From Microbacterium testaceum (GTDB lineage Bacteria > Actinomycetota > Actinomycetes > Actinomycetales > Microbacteriaceae): a stretch of 64,000 nucleotides of DNA. Shown piece after piece: positions 8,098 to 15,688 of the stretch; positions within the stretch are counted from its first letter, which is position 1, and each line of letters starts with the position of its first letter. A program made the position numbers and the translations under genes. The notes under the pieces were generated by a model. That model did not search any database. It was not told the origin of the DNA and worked only from the letters and a program-made list of their open reading frames with translations. The stretch spans positions 1,488,001-1,552,000 of the forward strand of contig NZ_CP121699.1 of assembly GCF_029761935.1 (NCBI RefSeq), in the 5' to 3' direction.

Positions 8098-8934
8098 TCA
8101 GTCCTTGAAAGCGGGATCGAGAATCGCAGCGACACGGACGATCTGGTCGTCGAGGCTTTCCTCGCTCACGGCCTCCAGCCGTTCCTTTCGTCGCCAGGCG
8201 GCCCACTTCCGCTGGCTGACGGCGCCGTATCCCTCGAGAACGGGCCCGATCACCTGCAACTCGACGCCTCGGTAGGACGCCACGGCCCGAGCGGCCTCGC
8301 GCAGGTCTGCGATGTCGATGCCCGCTTCACCGAGGGTCACGATGTCTACGTAGTCGCGCCAGCGAGTGCTCGTGACCCCCCTCTCCAGGATGGTCACGCC
8401 TTTCTCCGCAATCGTCGACTCCGGCGCGTATCCCAGGAGCGTGATGGGCTGCCCGAGAAGACGAGGCAGCGTCACCCTGCGCGGCGCGGGGACGACGGGA
8501 TCGCCCGTCGACACGTCCCACGCGATGGCACCCTGCCAGCTACCGATGCTCACTTTGAGACGAAGCCGCATGCCCGGGTAGTTGGCATCCTCCCGGATGT
8601 CGTTCACTACGAGACTGTCGAGCAAGAACTCAACGCCGTCGTTAGCTTCGATGGCGGCGACGTCGTGAACGACCCGGCGAAGGTGCGCAGGCGTGACATC
8701 AGCTGCTATCGCGTTCGAGTCGGCGTCCTTGGTGGAACGGCGCACGCCATATGCGCCGAGCAAGAGGCCGCCTTTCAGGACGAAATCCTCCGCATGCATC
8801 GTTTGCGTGAGCCTCGCGAGAAAGGATTCGAGTGCGTGCCGGAGAAGATACTCCTGCGTCGCCACCGGAGCGCCGTTCGTGGCGCCCGAGCGCGCGAGCG
8901 CCTGCACCGCTCGGAAAACCTCAACGCCGCTCAC
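8098..8934 (-). CDS. AbiEii-type nucleotidyltransferase toxin
   Basis: A 278-residue protein of the AbiEii/AbiGii family, the toxin of type IV abortive-infection toxin-antitoxin systems and a nucleotidyltransferase related to MenA. Recognisable are FVLKGGLLLGAYGVRRSTKDAD (the KGG...R.T.D nucleotidyltransferase core) and the later EKGVTILERG...RWRDYVDI motif, where Lys and Asp are conserved. The GTG at 8932-8934 overlaps the stop of the antitoxin gene (GTGA, 8931-8934), so the pair is translationally coupled. AbiE-type pairs protect against phage by arresting growth and also stabilise mobile DNA; which applies here is unknown. Confidence 0.88.
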   Translation of the reverse strand: MSGVEVFRAVQALARSGATNGAPVATQEYLLRHALESFLARLTQTMHAEDFVLKGGLLLGAYGVRRSTKDADSNAIAADVTPAHLRRVVHDVAAIEANDGVEFLLDSLVVNDIREDANYPGMRLRLKVSIGSWQGAIAWDVSTGDPVVPAPRRVTLPRLLGQPITLLGYAPESTIAEKGVTILERGVTSTRWRDYVDIVTLGEAGIDIADLREAARAVASYRGVELQVIGPVLEGYGAVSQRKWAAWRRKERLEAVSEESLDDQIVRVAAILDPAFKD

Positions 8935-9488
8935 GCGAGAATCTCGAGTGCGTCGCGTACAGGCTTGGTGCTCCGAGGAAGGGCTTGAGCCACTTTCATC
9001 AAGGTCGCGGGCTTCCCCCCGCGTCGCAACCACTCTTTCAGCGCGTCGCGCGGAATCTCGTAACCCGTGTCGGCTCGTAAGCGGAAGCAGTCCACGATCG
9101 TTCGTTCCGGCGTGTAGATGCCGATCCGCTGAGTGCTGCCGGGGATGACGACGCCTTCTCGCTCCAACAAGAAGGTGCCCGCATCGAACCGATGCCAACG
9201 GATGGCGCTTTCTGACGCGGGAGCGCGGGTACCACGAGGAATAGCGACGTCGAGCGCGTCGGGGATGACATCAGTGAGGTCGTAGTACGCAAGCGCCGAA
9301 ATGAGGCAGATGGTCGCCTCGGGGCGACGGGCCGATGCTTCGAGCTGGTCCCAGTCCGCTGCGGGCGCACCTTCGGGAAGGTAGAGGCCCCGAGCGATCC
9401 GCTCCCATGCTCCCCTGTTCGCGCTGCGGTAGAAGCCGCTGCGGCTGCCCTTGCCCTGCACAGCTGAGTTCGGCGTGACAGGTCGCAC
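8931..9488 (-). CDS. AbiEi-family antitoxin
   Basis: A 185-residue antitoxin partner of the downstream AbiEii toxin. The N-terminus (KGSRSGFYRSANRGAWERIARGLYL) is the winged-helix region of the AbiEi antitoxin domain, and the C-terminal ~100 residues match the AbiEi C-terminal region (ERTIVDCFRLR...REALKEWL-like). I prefer the GTG at 9486-9488 because GAGGGAAAT precedes it. An in-frame ATG at 9513-9515 has no ribosome binding site and lies four bases from a palindromic operator. AbiEi proteins repress their own promoter through inverted repeats, consistent with the palindrome at 9520-9533. Confidence 0.85.
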   Translation of the reverse strand: MRPVTPNSAVQGKGSRSGFYRSANRGAWERIARGLYLPEGAPAADWDQLEASARRPEATICLISALAYYDLTDVIPDALDVAIPRGTRAPASESAIRWHRFDAGTFLLEREGVVIPGSTQRIGIYTPERTIVDCFRLRADTGYEIPRDALKEWLRRGGKPATLMKVAQALPRSTKPVRDALEILA

Positions 9489-9519
9489 GATTTCCCTCTC
9501 TCTGACACAAAACATTCAC

Positions 9520-10109: not shown

Positions 10110-11288
10110 TCACCGCGACGCCGCCAGCACCGCCACCAACCCCTCCCGCAGGTCGCGCACGAACTCCCCCGGCATCTCCAACGCGGGAAAGTGGCCACCC
10201 GCCTCGGGTGCCCGCCATCGCACGATGTGGCGAAACCGCTCCTCCGCCCAGGACCGCGGGTGCTTCTCGATGTCGTGCGGGTACGTCGTAAGGGCCGCGG
10301 GCACCGCCACCCGCAGGTCGGGGTCGAGCGACTGGTGACTCTCGAAGTAGATTCGCGCCGCTGACGCGCCGCTCGCCGTGAGCCAGTACAAGGTCACGTT
10401 GTCGAGGAAGCGGTCGCGCGAGATGGTCTCGAACGGCGAGTCGACCGTGTCGCTCCACTCGAAGAACTTCTCAAGGATCCACGCGAGCAGCCCGACGGGC
10501 GAGTCGACTAGGGAATACCCGATCGTCTGCGGCGCGGTTGCCATGACCTTCGCGTAAGCGAGACGGTTCCTCCCCAAGGCGCGGGTGTGCTCGACCCACT
10601 GCCGTTCGGTGTCGTCGAGCCCGTCGAGACGGAGGCCGGGCGGCGCGCTCGGCATGGTCGTGTGGATGCCGATGACGTGCTCCGGAAACCGACCACCGAG
10701 CACGATGGTGACCGGCCCGCCCCAATCGCCGCCGTGGGCGAGGAACCGGTCGTAGCCGAGCCGGCGCATGAGCTGGACCCACGCGGCCGCGATGCGCTCG
10801 GTGCCCCATCCCTCTTCGGCGGGTTTGTCGGAGTAGCCGTACCCCGGCAGCGACGGCACGACGACGTGGAACGCCGGGGCACCGGCATCCTGAGGTTCGG
10901 AGAGCTCGTCGATGACGTCGACGAACTCGGCGACGCTCCCCGGCCAGCCGTGGGTCAGGACGAGCGGGGTGGCATCCGGCCGCGGCGAACGGCGGTGGAG
11001 GAAATGGATGCCGAGCCCGTCGATGACCGTGCGGAACTGGCCGATCTCGTTGAGCCTGCGCTCGAACGGCAGCCAGTCGTACCCGGTTCGCCAGTACTCG
11101 ATGAGCTCGACGATGTCGGCGAGGGGCGGGCCTTGCTCCCACCGATCGCGGCCTCGCGCGTCGTGGGGTGTCGTTGCGCGTTCAGGGAGTCGCGTCGAGG
11201 TCAGGCGTGCGCGCAGCGCGGCGAGGTCCTCGTCGGTGGTGTGCGTCTCGAAGCGCTCGATCCGGTCCGTCGTCATCTGGTCGCTCAT
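10110..11288 (-). CDS. epoxide hydrolase (alpha/beta hydrolase with EHN domain)
   Basis: A 392-residue enzyme of the microsomal-type bacterial epoxide hydrolase family. The N-terminal ~110 residues are the EHN domain (ETHTTDEDLAALRARLTSTR ... YDWLPFERRLNEIGQFRTVI). The alpha/beta hydrolase core follows with the oxyanion motif THGWPGS and the nucleophile elbow GGDWGG, whose Asp attacks the epoxide. The charge-relay His is in the C-terminal EAGGHFPALE. The ATG at 11286-11288 has GAGGAG upstream. It is divergent from the CGNR regulator gene, and two matching dyads lie between them, suggesting control by that regulator. Confidence 0.92.
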   Translation of the reverse strand: MSDQMTTDRIERFETHTTDEDLAALRARLTSTRLPERATTPHDARGRDRWEQGPPLADIVELIEYWRTGYDWLPFERRLNEIGQFRTVIDGLGIHFLHRRSPRPDATPLVLTHGWPGSVAEFVDVIDELSEPQDAGAPAFHVVVPSLPGYGYSDKPAEEGWGTERIAAAWVQLMRRLGYDRFLAHGGDWGGPVTIVLGGRFPEHVIGIHTTMPSAPPGLRLDGLDDTERQWVEHTRALGRNRLAYAKVMATAPQTIGYSLVDSPVGLLAWILEKFFEWSDTVDSPFETISRDRFLDNVTLYWLTASGASAARIYFESHQSLDPDLRVAVPAALTTYPHDIEKHPRSWAEERFRHIVRWRAPEAGGHFPALEMPGEFVRDLREGLVAVLAASR

Positions 11289-11313
11289 CGATGCTCCTCG
11301 TCGACCGGCGGAT

Positions 11314-11375
11314 GGAACCGGCTGTGACGGTTCTAACACTCTGGCCGACGACGCGGAACCACCTATGCTGGTTCC
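11314..11375. promoter_or_regulatory. twin GGAACC-N9-GGTTC operators and leaderless promoter
   Basis: Two inverted repeats with the same architecture occupy the divergent region: GGAACC-N9-GGTTC at 11314-11333 and GGAACC-N9-GGTTCC at 11355-11375. Their centres are 41 bases apart, about four helical turns. The second one overlaps the -10 TATGCT (11364-11369), which lies six bases before the ATG at 11376. Such a layout would let one dimeric regulator, probably the adjacent CGNR protein, repress itself and the epoxide hydrolase. Confidence 0.6.
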
Positions 11376-11930
11376 ATGCCTGCTCGCGACCCGGAGTTTC
11401 GTCTCGGCTCCGTGCTTGCCACCACCTTCACGGGAACACTCACGGAACGGTTCGGCGCACCCGTAGAGCGGATCCCAACCCCCGCTCGCCTCGCGGATTG
11501 GCTGCGGGAGGTGGACCTGCCCGTCGACGCGTGCTCGCCCGACGATCTCGCCGCCGCGGTGGAGCTGCGCGAGGCGATCCACATCGCGGCGTCGGCTCAG
11601 GCCGTCGGGCAGCCGCGCCCTCGCGACGCCGTCGAGGTCATCAACGGGTTCAGCGAACGCGGCGGTGCCGTGGCGGTGCTCGCCGAAGACGGCCGCCGGC
11701 GATGGTTCCTCGGACAGCCCGCGACCGTCGCGGCAGCCCTCGGGGTCGTGGCCGCCGACGCCATCGAGATCGTCGCCGGCGTGCGCCCCGGCGCCCTGGC
11801 GCTCTGCGCCTCCCCCACCTGCCGCGCAGCGTTCCTCGATACCAGTCGCGGCCGCACCCGCCGGTGGTGCGACATGAACACGTGCGGCAACCACGAGAAG
11901 AAGGTGCGGTTGCGGGCGCGGCGGGGCTAA
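11376..11930 (+). CDS. CGNR zinc-finger regulator with ABATE domain
   Basis: A 184-residue protein of the actinobacterial ABATE-CGNR family of putative stress-responsive regulators. The N-terminal ~120 residues have the mostly helical ABATE pattern (LADWLREVDLPVDACSPDDL ... AVELREAIHIAAS). The C-terminus is the CGNR zinc finger, with CASPTCRAAFLDTSRGRTRRWCDMNTCGN providing four Cys ligands and the name motif. The ATG is six bases after TATGCT, so translation is probably leaderless. The gene is divergent from the epoxide hydrolase and overlaps one of the paired operators, which suggests autoregulation. Confidence 0.88.
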   Translation: MPARDPEFRLGSVLATTFTGTLTERFGAPVERIPTPARLADWLREVDLPVDACSPDDLAAAVELREAIHIAASAQAVGQPRPRDAVEVINGFSERGGAVAVLAEDGRRRWFLGQPATVAAALGVVAADAIEIVAGVRPGALALCASPTCRAAFLDTSRGRTRRWCDMNTCGNHEKKVRLRARRG

Positions 11931-12124
11931 GGCTGCGCAATCCGACGCATCCCTCGCACTAACCGGTGTGTGTCTGGCAGCGCCACCACCTTCGCGACCG
12001 CATCAAGACGTCGCGGGCTGAGATGCGGCGAATATGGATTTCCTTCTCAAGGAAACACTGTAGAGCGGGTTGAGCACATATAGGCTCGGATGACCTGTGA
12101 CCGAGAGCGATTGCCAAGGACGAC

Positions 12125-13006
12125 ATGAGCCTACCGCCACTACCTTTTTCGGACGACGAACTGGCTGCCGCATTCGAAGGCAGGGCGCTCGTGACTCCAC
12201 CTTTGGGTCGTGGCTCCTACAAAGCAGCGTTTTTGGCTGATGATGGAACTCTGGCCGTGGTCAAAGTCCTGACAGAGCCACTTCCGGCCGACGTAGACGG
12301 AACAGACGTGGATGCATCCCTCCTCCCGGAGCGATTCGCCCGGGAGATTCGGGCGATGCAGTCGGCCGACTCACCCCACCTCGGCTCAATCAGCGCCGAA
12401 CCCCGAGCGGTGCAGATCGGCGGGGCCAGATACGTAACGTACGAGGAGCCATTCTACGGCGGCGGCACCCTCGCGGAGCGTCTAAAGATTGCCCCACTCT
12501 CCTCCGCCGAAGCCGAGACCCTCGTGATCGAGCAGCTTCTCGCAGTTCATGAACTGTGGAAGGTCCGGATAGTTCACCGCGACATCAAGCCGGGCAATAT
12601 CGTCTTCGACACCACGGGCCGGTCAGTACTGATCGATCCCGGCATCTCGCTTCACGTTGACCTCGATGACCTGACGGAATCGTCACATAGCTCGCCAATG
12701 ACACTCGGCTTCTCCGCCCCCGAACAACACGAAGCCAGAAGGTATGCCCAGATTGACTTTCGCACAGACCACTTCCTGGTAGGCATAGTTGGGTTCCTTG
12801 CCGTAAGCGGAGTGCATCCCATATTGACGATTGGTATGGATCGAAATGCGTTCATAACCAGATTGCTGTCTTTCGATCGCATCGACGTTTCATCTCTGCC
12901 ATGTCGCGCAGAACTGAGAACAGTACTCGGTCGCCTCCTCGCACCGAAACCCAATCGTCGATTCCGTTCGACACTAGAGCCCTTGGAGGTGCTCGGAGCC
13001 ATATGA
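12125..13006 (+). CDS. serine/threonine protein kinase-like protein
   Basis: A 293-residue soluble kinase-fold protein with no transmembrane segment or PASTA domain. The glycine-rich loop (PLGRGSYKAAF), ATP-binding Lys (AVVKVL) and catalytic loop HRDIKPGNIVFD (His151, Asp153, Lys155, Asn158) are intact. The metal-binding DFG is replaced by DPG (Asp171), and an APE-like SAPEQ follows. The essential Asp and Lys are all present, so activity is plausible. AAGGA precedes the ATG. The stop overlaps the start of the next gene (ATGA, 13003-13006), so the two act together. Codon use and lower GC than the surroundings suggest acquisition by transfer. Confidence 0.85.
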   Translation: MSLPPLPFSDDELAAAFEGRALVTPPLGRGSYKAAFLADDGTLAVVKVLTEPLPADVDGTDVDASLLPERFAREIRAMQSADSPHLGSISAEPRAVQIGGARYVTYEEPFYGGGTLAERLKIAPLSSAEAETLVIEQLLAVHELWKVRIVHRDIKPGNIVFDTTGRSVLIDPGISLHVDLDDLTESSHSSPMTLGFSAPEQHEARRYAQIDFRTDHFLVGIVGFLAVSGVHPILTIGMDRNAFITRLLSFDRIDVSSLPCRAELRTVLGRLLAPKPNRRFRSTLEPLEVLGAI

Positions 13007-14175
13007 GCCTTTACCTACAGCACGGGTACGGGAAGGGTCGCAAGATTACCTTGCTTGCCGCCTCGAACGCGATCGACGGCGTCATCCTAAGTCCTGCGGA
13101 CGAGGACTCAAACGTTCTGTCACGCACCGTTGGAGAGGCTCGGGAGCTTGGCCTGCAGGTCAGAGTCGATCCGCAGACATACATTTACTCGATGTCGCCT
13201 AAGGGGGTCGGCAGGAAACACGATTCGCACGAGGTCCGGTTTGATGATCTGCACTGGTCTCAGGAGGTCTCCGCTATCGGACGGCAAATCGCGAGGGTAG
13301 GCGCGATGCACGATGCTGTGAACCCTGGGGCACCTAAGTTCGCCCCAACGGTCCTACAGACGTCATTGGATGATGTATGGACGTCCACCGCGTTTCAGCT
13401 TGCGCGAACCTCGGCCGCCGAGTGGGGACGAGAGAATACGATCGCAACCCTTGCCATCGAAGACACAGCATTGGACACGTGGCGGCAGGTAGATGAGTGG
13501 CTGGACGTCGCAACGACCCTCGAGGTTCGCGGCTTCTACATCCTCGTGGGCCGTAAGGATACGAGCTACCCGCCTGTCGCCTGGCCGACGGAGCGCCTCG
13601 CGAATCTCTTGCGCATGATCTACGTGTTGTCCGAGCTCAACGACTACGAGGTGATGTGGGGATACGCTGACAGCGAAGGAATCCTCGGACTGGCGGCCGG
13701 CGCATCGGCATTTGCAGCAGGATGGAATTATTCGCTTCGCCAATTCAAGCCCTCAAAGTGGCAGCCCTCGGACAGGAAGGGCGGCGCTCCGCCTAACAAC
13801 CGATTCTATGTACGTAAATTGTGGTCTCCCCTTTTGAGTACAAGCGAAACCGACAACCTGTACCACTCGAGAATGCGAGAGCAAGTCTTTACTCAGGCGG
13901 AATTGCGATTCATAGACCAGAAGCCCCTAGAAAACCTCGGCCTCGTGGATGCGCAATTGCAGTACCTGCAGAACATAGCTTCGCAAGCGCGAATTGTGCT
14001 TGGCAAGGGCCCCACCCCCAATCGACTCGACTACTTGGGGGTAGCTCTCTCTAACGCGAACGAGCATCTGCGCAGCATAGAACAGGAAGGAATTCCCCTG
14101 AGCGCGCGCTATCGGGGACGCATTCAGTCGCTTGGCAGTGCTATTGCTCGATTTCGTGAGGCAGAGAATTTGTGA
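13003..14175 (+). CDS. unknown protein coupled to kinase, possible TIM-barrel fold
   Basis: A 390-residue protein I do not recognise. Alternating hydrophobic strands and helices (ITLLAASNAIDGVILSPADE; ENTIATLAIEDTALDTWRQV; VRGFYILVGRK; YEVMWGYADSEGILGLAAGA) give a beta/alpha rhythm like a TIM barrel. Asp/Glu residues sit at strand ends (SPADED, IEDT, YADSEG). A Cys-free, basic C-terminal third follows. It starts inside the stop codon of the kinase gene, so it is its likely partner or substrate. Its 3' end overlaps the convergent nuclease-like gene by 52 bases. No function is assigned. Confidence 0.75.
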   Translation: MSLYLQHGYGKGRKITLLAASNAIDGVILSPADEDSNVLSRTVGEARELGLQVRVDPQTYIYSMSPKGVGRKHDSHEVRFDDLHWSQEVSAIGRQIARVGAMHDAVNPGAPKFAPTVLQTSLDDVWTSTAFQLARTSAAEWGRENTIATLAIEDTALDTWRQVDEWLDVATTLEVRGFYILVGRKDTSYPPVAWPTERLANLLRMIYVLSELNDYEVMWGYADSEGILGLAAGASAFAAGWNYSLRQFKPSKWQPSDRKGGAPPNNRFYVRKLWSPLLSTSETDNLYHSRMREQVFTQAELRFIDQKPLENLGLVDAQLQYLQNIASQARIVLGKGPTPNRLDYLGVALSNANEHLRSIEQEGIPLSARYRGRIQSLGSAIARFREAENL

Positions 14176-15395
14176 GCAGTTTCGCTTTCGATGCCACGCA
14201 GCAGAAGTTCCGCGAGCCATAACCTTCTGTACGAAGGGATCTCCCGCCGTGTCGGCAAAATTTCCCACCGCACACCGTCCATGTCGGCGACGATCAGCCC
14301 ACCCCCAAGGTGTTCGAGGGTTGACCTCGAGGCGCGGTGGGCCGTGGTCGCTGGCATGCAAACAGCCGCGCGATGGACGGAGACTCTAAATTTGTTCAGC
14401 TGTTGCAGCGCGCGCTTCGCATCATTCAACTTGACTTCAATCGCCAGTGAGTCATGCACCAAATCAGACATGCGGCGCACCCCATCTGAGTCCCACCCCT
14501 CTCGTGACATCCGCAGCTCGATAGCCCGCGCATGCTGCGGCGACAATCCGGGTGCTGACCCGCCGCGCCCAGCGGCCAGAACCCGAGCTGCAGAGAGCGT
14601 AGGTATGCGCAGCTGCCGACGCTGAGCAAATAGAACGGCCTGCGACGAAGCCTGAACCATCAATGCGTCTGGAATACCGAAACCCGTCTTTGGCTCAAGA
14701 ATGAGCCATGACGAGCGTCCAGGACCTGGAGCGAAGAGAGCTCCGGCACTTCGAGCGAGCTGAGCAGTCAGGTGCGCTTCCGCCTTAGGCACCCCGACCC
14801 TGCGGCCGCCCTTCGAGTCCCCTGCAGGAATTAGCTCAGTTGAGGCATGGAGAGAGTCTGCTGTATCTGCGGGTCGATCGGGCGGTGAATCAGATTGAAT
14901 GAACGTATTACGCGTGGCGGCCCCGCCGCCGATGCCGACCCCCAGAAGGTCGCCCTCCCTCAGCGACGGCAGGCCAGCCAATATGACCTTCACGTCTGGA
15001 GCGGGTGACAGTAGAGACGCAATCGCCCGTACTGTGTCAGGGGAATACCGACGAACGAACCCTTGCGGGCTGATGTCCTGCGCCCGCGCTAGAGCTGAGA
15101 TCACGGGACGGGGATCAAGGAACCGATGAGCGTAGGCTGACACAAAAGCGCGAAGATCTGCAGCCGCCCGTGTCGTCAAGTGCGCCGCTCTTAGAGTGTC
15201 GCAAAGCTCGTCTTGTACATTGGCATCCGAGGACGCCGAGGTCAGCCTCTCGAGTTCTTTCGCTCCTTCAAGCGATCTTTCTCCGAGTATGCGAAGGATC
15301 TCAAGGACGGGCTGAGCGTGGGCCGATCGATCGCCGTGCGGGAGGCTACTGTCCAACTGCTTCACCCCCAGTCCGTGTACACCCATCTTAAACAT
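14124..15395 (-). CDS. PD-(D/E)XK nuclease-like protein
   Basis: A 423-residue protein with a likely C-terminal restriction-endonuclease-like fold. GFGIPDALMV (Pro242-Asp243) and AIEVKLND (Glu320-Val-Lys322), followed by the helix AKRALQQLNKFRVSVHRAAV, match the D...ExK pattern. A helical insertion of ~70 residues (PTLSAARVLAA ... ARAIELRMSREGWDSD) lies between them, possibly a helix-turn-helix. The N-terminal ~150 residues are all-alpha and unrecognised. The start is uncertain; the ATG at 15393-15395 was taken, with a second ATG at 15384-15386. It converges on and overlaps the kinase-partner gene by 52 bases and shares its low-GC character. Confidence 0.7.
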   Translation of the reverse strand: MFKMGVHGLGVKQLDSSLPHGDRSAHAQPVLEILRILGERSLEGAKELERLTSASSDANVQDELCDTLRAAHLTTRAAADLRAFVSAYAHRFLDPRPVISALARAQDISPQGFVRRYSPDTVRAIASLLSPAPDVKVILAGLPSLREGDLLGVGIGGGAATRNTFIQSDSPPDRPADTADSLHASTELIPAGDSKGGRRVGVPKAEAHLTAQLARSAGALFAPGPGRSSWLILEPKTGFGIPDALMVQASSQAVLFAQRRQLRIPTLSAARVLAAGRGGSAPGLSPQHARAIELRMSREGWDSDGVRRMSDLVHDSLAIEVKLNDAKRALQQLNKFRVSVHRAAVCMPATTAHRASRSTLEHLGGGLIVADMDGVRWEILPTRREIPSYRRLWLAELLLRGIESETAHKFSASRNRAIALPSD

Positions 15396-15688
15396 TTGTT
15401 GAAGCGAAGGGTGGTCCGTCCTGGACAGGGGCGGGAACCATGGCCGTGGTCCGCCGAGAACATCAGAGGAGAGGCCAGCCTCCCCTCCGCCTTGAGCTCG
15501 CCGCGCCGACCTGCATGTAACGCCTACGTAAACTCCCCCTCTCCCCCACCCCCACCGCGGGTGAGACAACCGTTACCTCCCCGCCCCTCCCGACGCGGTC
15601 CCGGGTAACGCCTCCTCCCTACGCTGACGGCACGCCCCGCCCATGCGAGGCGCTGCACCTCCCCCGCATCGCCCACCGGAGGACCCCC
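15396..15688. promoter_or_regulatory. nitrate operon control region with GlnR-box-like motifs
   Basis: The gap between the nuclease-like gene and the nitrate transporter contains three GTAAC/GTTAC elements: GTAAC-GCCTAC-GTAAAC at 15517-15533, GTTAC at 15572-15576, and GTAAC at 15605-15609. A TACGCT -10-like hexamer lies near 15620. The first resembles the actinobacterial GlnR operator (GTnAC-n6-GaAAC), which would fit nitrogen control of nitrate assimilation. This is motif resemblance, not proof. Confidence 0.4.

Follow-up and report, generated by a model that had tools for sequence, protein, structure and literature searches.

Stk2 and PglW are kinase-based defence systems, and tRNA-guanine transglycosylases (TGTs) of the TGT/DpdA superfamily (PF01702) use two Asp residues for catalysis, one after strand 3 and one after strand 8. 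Kinase-based defence also includes KKP, as described in PMC11341870, and PD-T4-6 in PADLOC. CapK/CapS is a kinase-repressor pair that controls immune operons, according to PMC13373217, and PMC12839542 reports TGT homologs in Dpd and BREX-related capture systems. Here we describe a three-gene module in a window of 64,000 nucleotides from Microbacterium testaceum (contig NZ_CP121699.1, positions 1,488,001 to 1,552,000). It encodes a single-domain Hanks-type Ser/Thr kinase of 293 residues (P0001, 12125-13006, forward strand), a TGT-like TIM barrel of 390 residues (P0002, 13003-14175, forward strand) and a PD-(D/E)XK protein of 423 residues (P0003, 14124-15395, reverse strand), convergent with the barrel gene. 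No described system with these parts was found in the open-access literature. The three proteins are a conserved, co-diverging set, and we give about even weight to the view that they form a horizontally spread conflict module, most likely directed against phages or other mobile DNA. The novelty lies in the composition; Dpd systems fail on a feature tested, the supply of preQ0, and kinase-based systems were compared in part.

Conservation and distribution of the three genes

The 30 barrel loci studied came from the window, 20 GTDB species genomes, two viral contigs, five whole-genome scans and two plasmids. With family profiles built partly from the same loci, the kinase, barrel and nuclease-fold genes were adjacent in 29 of the 30, and in the thirtieth (L021) the contig ends within the barrel gene. 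The window kinase alone as a query found a kinase beside all 28 barrels then in the set, and a profile of ten nuclease sequences detected the nuclease at 20 of these 28 loci (weakest E value 0.009). The original prediction, made from the sequence alone, had proposed a module not described before, with effectors for signalling and nuclease action; since neither this co-occurrence nor the nuclease fold described below contradicted it, the proposal is supported.

The nuclease gene was convergent in 22 loci and lay downstream on the same strand in five (L011, L012, L013, L015, L018), and two loci had the order nuclease-kinase-barrel (L051 from Natribaculum and L052 from Polaromonas). Adjacency holds at median pairwise identities of 28, 24 and 20% for kinase, barrel and nuclease, so the linkage of the three genes is old. 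The three distance matrices correlated with r values of 0.88, 0.87 and 0.79, which were reached in none of 2000 permutations.

The module is common to bacteria and one archaeon. Host names include Rhodococcus, Brevibacterium, Arthrobacter, Priestia, Virgibacillus and Paenibacillus, as well as Rhodospirillaceae, Planctomycetota and Omnitrophota. The haloarchaeal locus, on a Natribaculum breve plasmid (L051, CP095393.1), holds the complete module, and its nuclease matches phrog_22231, a family with no assigned function (9e-12). The module is also rare. Barrel matches were found in three of 394 genomes of the class with a narrow profile and in seven with a broad one, in four of 398 genomes of the family, and in one of 12 genomes of the genus, the window's own. 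A complete set was present in five of the 394 class genomes (G000, G164, G249, G147, G313). The set in G147 was complete though its barrel gave no match in the broad-profile scan, and the middle gene of G313 (470 aa, with CxCxxC) was barrel-like by eye and was missed by the barrel profile. P0002 gave no tblastn match in plasmids; Bacillota and alphaproteobacterial barrel relatives each found the same two plasmids, and the Bacillota relative found none in phages.

Related partial loci were also seen. In three genomes of one genus (G122, G181, G251) the nuclease-fold protein lacks ExK, and two of the three have a TGT-like gene beside it. At L073 4405-6211 and L074 6048-8091 a TGT-like CxCxxC protein is paired with a nuclease-fold protein lacking ExK, and a kinase was not found there. 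Distant barrels in G093, G078, G098 and G082 had no kinase or nuclease match, with RES genes beside two of them. At L076 5878-8240, L077 261-2580 and L078 5839-7856 distant TGT-like barrels stand beside RES toxins, again with no kinase or nuclease match; the toxins were assigned by Pfam RES in L076 and L077 and by an RES-like fragment seen by eye in L078. These pairs are perhaps a second TGT-like conflict system. Nuclease-profile matches in G141, G087 and G267 were weak (E > 2e-4).

Kinase

The kinase matched Pfam Pkinase (3e-14), and its predicted catalytic residues are intact: K47, the alpha-C Glu, HRDxKxxN with Asp153, and D171-P-G at residues 171-173. Across the family, HRD, the loop Asn and DxG were kept in all 28 aligned kinases, and the N-lobe Lys and Glu in all 27 that were not truncated. 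The catalytic-loop Lys was present in 23 of the 28, with Ser in its place (HRDLSxxN) in one clade (L024-L028). The middle residue of DxG was L, P, T, M, A or F, and DFG occurred in two sequences. The original prediction had noted an intact HRD-K-N together with DPG in place of DFG; both are present, but the DPG is no oddity in a family where DFG is found in two of 28. A reading of DPG as the sign of an inactive kinase was rejected, because the middle position varies within the family while the D and the G are kept in all 28.

The kinase also matched PADLOC models of PD-T4-6, the best at 8e-21 over residues 20-283, and many PD-T4-6 and other kinase models in PADLOC match it likewise. It resembles kinase-based defence systems in its Hanks-type domain, a comparison made by the kinase domain only, and differs from them in having two fixed partners. 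To our knowledge PD-T4-6, Stk2, PglW and KKP have no two such partners.

Barrel protein

The original prediction had seen a TIM-barrel-like pattern in the middle protein, and an AlphaFold2 model bore this out with a TIM barrel of pLDDT 96 and pTM 0.94. In structure comparison the barrel aligned best to TGT structures over approximately 300 residues, which points to a TGT-type TIM-barrel fold; all 50 entries of the alignment were TGTs, so that non-TGT barrels could not be ranked from it. The "metabolic-fold enzyme" of the original prediction is thereby narrowed to a TGT-like barrel. In a viral structure library the matches were mixed TIM barrels, two of them at E <= 0.001 (one unnamed and one glycoside hydrolase); further down the list came a phage TGT (rank 11, 0.013) and a Microbacterium-phage queuine ribosyltransferase (rank 47, 0.28).

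D56 stands where strand 3 ends and does not vary among 93 barrel sequences, and other conserved residues also lie at C-terminal strand ends (Q6/K11, E34, Q58, D223, G240-W241 and R246). By a strand-order reading, made without residue-level superposition on TGT, the strand-8 position is Gly240-Trp241, and in the model the nucleophile Asp of TGTs is thus apparently replaced by Gly-Trp. The zinc site CxCxxC...H is absent from the P0002 sequence; it is kept in distant barrel relatives (L070, L071, L073, L074), with an hhalign p of 0.017 at the motif. The predicted structure therefore describes a TIM barrel that is closest to TGT, has a conserved pocket and lacks the TGT zinc site.

Annotation databases gave little for this protein. 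P0002 matched no Pfam family at E <= 5, PF01702 included, and in NCBIfam it gave a single line at E 0.15, far below the family cut-off. Neither P0002 nor P0003 had a Pfam or PADLOC match at E <= 5 or a PHROGs match at E <= 0.01. At E <= 0.001 a search with P0002 gave 143 relatives and one with a broader profile gave 182; among the 120 matches listed per search there was no Pfam domain, and the names among the matches listed were "hypothetical" or "uncharacterized" only. In comparison to the TGT/DpdA superfamily, the protein is alike in its best structural alignment, its invariant strand-3 Asp and the CxCxxC...H of its distant relatives; it differs in the missing PF01702 match, the missing zinc cysteines, the apparent Gly-Trp at the nucleophile position, and in its partners, which are a kinase and a PD-(D/E)XK protein.

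Nuclease-fold protein

For the third protein the original prediction had proposed a nuclease from PD...ExK motifs. This holds for residues ~200-410, where the model has a pLDDT of mostly 94-98, and both the model and the structure matches gave a restriction-endonuclease fold. The core covers residues ~197-413 (14157-14807, reverse strand). Judged from the sequence, the PD-(D/E)XK site is intact, with D243 of the PD motif (14667-14669), E320-V-K322 (14436-14438 and 14430-14432) and Q332. In an alignment of 34 nuclease sequences (A4), G240, E320, K322, Q332 and G366 were invariant, and E206, E234 and D243 were present in at least 90%. Identity to P0003 goes as low as 14% in this alignment, and the invariance of E320, K322 and Q332 over that range argues for catalysis. 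Profile searches of PDB with A4 and with alignment A6 gave nothing convincing.

By DSSP the model has a helical insert of residues ~251-310 (14466-14645, reverse strand) that follows the D243 strand and precedes that of ExK, where relatives have a winged helix. Eighteen Pfam families, mostly winged-helix or helix-turn-helix, were each matched by one to four of the 34 members; P0003 itself matched none of these, and no Pfam nuclease family was matched by any of the 34 at E <= 0.01. Residues 1-196 (14808-15395, reverse strand) form a helical extension of low model confidence with no confident fold, found among the 34 only in P0003 and one 81%-identical relative (P0124). P0003 as a query found ten relatives, eight of them of 249-271 aa and without most of this extension, and no names were attached among the matches listed.

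The winged-helix insert of relatives favours a reading of the third protein as a DNA-binding regulator that keeps a nuclease fold and is controlled by the kinase, as in CapK/CapS. In that pair (PMC13373217), too, a small kinase has a partner that binds DNA, and the context is immune; one lineage here (L073, L074) has lost ExK. CapK/CapS differs in being neither Hanks-type nor PD-(D/E)XK. Against this reading, E320, K322 and Q332 are invariant in all 34 sequences, and the lineage without ExK is also without a recognised kinase. We regard this reading as improbable.

Structure comparison of the nuclease gave matches to PaqCI, a type IIS enzyme, and to NucS/EndoMS. The module nuclease differs from both in its helical or winged-helix insert between the D and ExK, in its fixed partner genes and in having no Pfam nuclease match. 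These matches would fit base-excision restriction, in which the TGT-like protein would remove a base from foreign DNA by a glycosidase half-reaction and a NucS/PaqCI-like nuclease would cut at the abasic site. The usual nucleophile seems absent from the barrel, as far as this can be read without residue-level superposition on TGT, and this explanation too has a low probability.

Genomic setting

The kinase and barrel genes overlap in a start/stop ATGA (13003-13006, forward strand), which suggests translational coupling and confirms the earlier observation that the 390-residue partner starts inside the kinase stop codon; the spacing of these two genes is also close in relatives. The barrel and nuclease genes overlap tail to tail by 52 bp (14124-14175), and a sequence resembling a ribosome-binding site (AAGGA, 12116-12120) precedes the kinase gene. 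A lower GC content and a different codon use had been claimed for the locus, and both were found. GC was 58.8% for 12125-15395 in comparison to 70.1 +/- 2.5% for 120 equal-length segments drawn from 400 kb of this genome, only one of which was as low. In codon typicality only 19, 23 and 3 of 216 open reading frames scored lower than the kinase, barrel and nuclease genes, respectively; these 216 were mechanically picked and probably include spurious frames.

The module occupies a variable site and is accessory in character. In a close relative (G780) both flanks are present and 2.75 kb of different sequence replaces the window's 4.27 kb. Similarity on the right starts at 15510-15516 in all four close relatives, and within a transporter gene in two more distant ones. 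At the same site relatives (L084-L087) have a DUF4747-like gene (below the cut-off), DUF488, or DUF6119 with HSDR_N. This region to the left of the transporter gene (window ~11239-15510; L084-L087) is a candidate island hotspot.

Approximately 2.6 kb upstream of the module lies an AbiEi/AbiEii type IV toxin-antitoxin pair (8101-9515, reverse strand; Pfam AbiEii 4e-28, PADLOC AbiEi 5e-45). Defence neighbours at single loci were the R subunit of a type I restriction-modification system (L004), McrBC (L016) and an SNF2/HKD-type helicase (L020); the PADLOC candidates PDC-S28 and PDC-S01 were found at L083, generic helicase matches in L005 and L006, and TniQ and TnsB at L002. Pfam Phage_integrase was the commonest family among 131 flanking open reading frames (seven matches), and six integrases lay in five of the 30 loci as placed by homology.

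Functional interpretation

We propose that the module acts in conflict with phages or other mobile DNA. The TGT-like barrel would recognise a nucleobase, a modified form of one, or a nucleic-acid structure typical of infection. The kinase, whose gene is translationally coupled to that of the barrel, would phosphorylate the barrel or the nuclease and so hold or release the response, and the nuclease, guided by its own helical segment or by the barrel, would cut DNA of the invader or, in an abortive response, of the cell itself. A conflict role is argued most strongly by several features taken together: the rarity of the module, its wide scatter, changes in gene order with kept linkage, and the DNA-binding-type segment of the nuclease. 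The original prediction had spoken of a possible undescribed phage-defence or stress module; the undescribed set stands, and the defence role is circumstantial, drawn from the scattered distribution and from some mobile-element and defence neighbours.

Several observations weigh against this proposal. The defence neighbours are individual cases with no control beside them; for the flanking frames, the PADLOC and Pfam results covered the 25 most frequent families with no control set, and therefore no enrichment figure can be given. At least two integrases (L014, L015) were seen in 12 module loci as compared to about 0.33 expected from a background of 97 matches in 50.6 Mb, a comparison that is only suggestive given its small numbers and two different methods. 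When flanking proteins were tested singly, seven of ten had no PADLOC match (two of these were McrBC-like by Pfam), as did four of ten in a second set, three of these four from relatives without the module. P0002, P0003 and 21 barrel relatives were all without a PADLOC match. Co-occurrence was seeded from the barrel side; with the broad barrel profile, a kinase and a nuclease accompanied the barrel in three of the seven genomes found (G000, G164, G249). It is looser from the nuclease side, where the 11 class genomes with matches comprised five complete sets, three with a degenerate nuclease and three weak matches. Some co-divergence is to be expected where host history is shared. A profile comparison of the barrel family with seven TGTs gave no signal (p 0.37), adding distant relatives brought a weak one that was the best of four comparisons (p 0.006), and the Foldseek top 50 for the barrel held no TGT, so that descent from TGT rests mainly on VIA and on the CxCxxC relatives. 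For the nuclease, Foldseek gave nothing at E <= 0.001 (best 3dnx, 2.7e-3).

The TGT-like fold and the presence of a nuclease within the same module recall a Dpd-like restriction-modification system, in which the TGT-like protein would mark host DNA as self by inserting a 7-deazaguanine, the nuclease would cut unmarked DNA and the kinase would regulate. TGT homologs do occur in Dpd and BREX-related capture systems (PMC12839542). The host genomes speak against such marking. The genome of the window has no canonical TGT (no PF01702 match) and no QueC. Among 18 module genomes, 12 of which were reached through loci and have no completeness value, a canonical TGT was present in ten and a clear QueC (E < 1e-50) in five; nine passed the tool's cut-off for QueC, the other four weakly (E 1e-6 to 2e-4). 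The module thus seems independent of host preQ0, which leaves a reader or other chemistry. The apparent Gly240-Trp241 at the nucleophile position points the same way, and no PADLOC family matched the 21 barrel members, with PADLOC's models of the Dpd TGT component unchecked. A Dpd-like system is in our view very unlikely here.

7-Deazaguanine is present in the DNA of some actinophages, coliphages and haloviruses (Rosebush, CAjan, HVTV-1) and protects it from restriction enzymes, according to PMC6884629. With neither QueC nor TGT in its own genome, 7-deazaguanine in DNA inside this host would most likely be foreign. A more specific form of our proposal is a kinase-gated, modification-dependent restriction of type IV kind, in which a TGT turned reader would bind phage 7-deazaguanine and pass the DNA to the nuclease; taken by itself we hold this form to be quite unlikely, if slightly less so than Dpd-like marking.

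TGTs act on tRNA, and kinases can be arrest toxins, as in the HipA family. The module could accordingly be an RNA-directed stress or toxin-antitoxin module, with a TGT-like protein that binds tRNA and a kinase and nuclease-fold protein that arrest growth independently of phages by acting on tRNA or on translation. Related TGT-like proteins do stand beside RES toxins. However, the winged-helix segments of the nuclease relatives and the PaqCI and NucS matches point to DNA, and the ExK of the nuclease is intact. This explanation is unlikely, though less so than the other rival readings.

Significance

With its kinase, base-recognition fold and nuclease, this conserved set of three genes, present both in bacteria and in an archaeon, is a new candidate immune system. 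If this is true, the TGT fold would be an immune component independent of the Q/preQ0 pathway, and the module could counter phages that hide behind 7-deazaguanine DNA.

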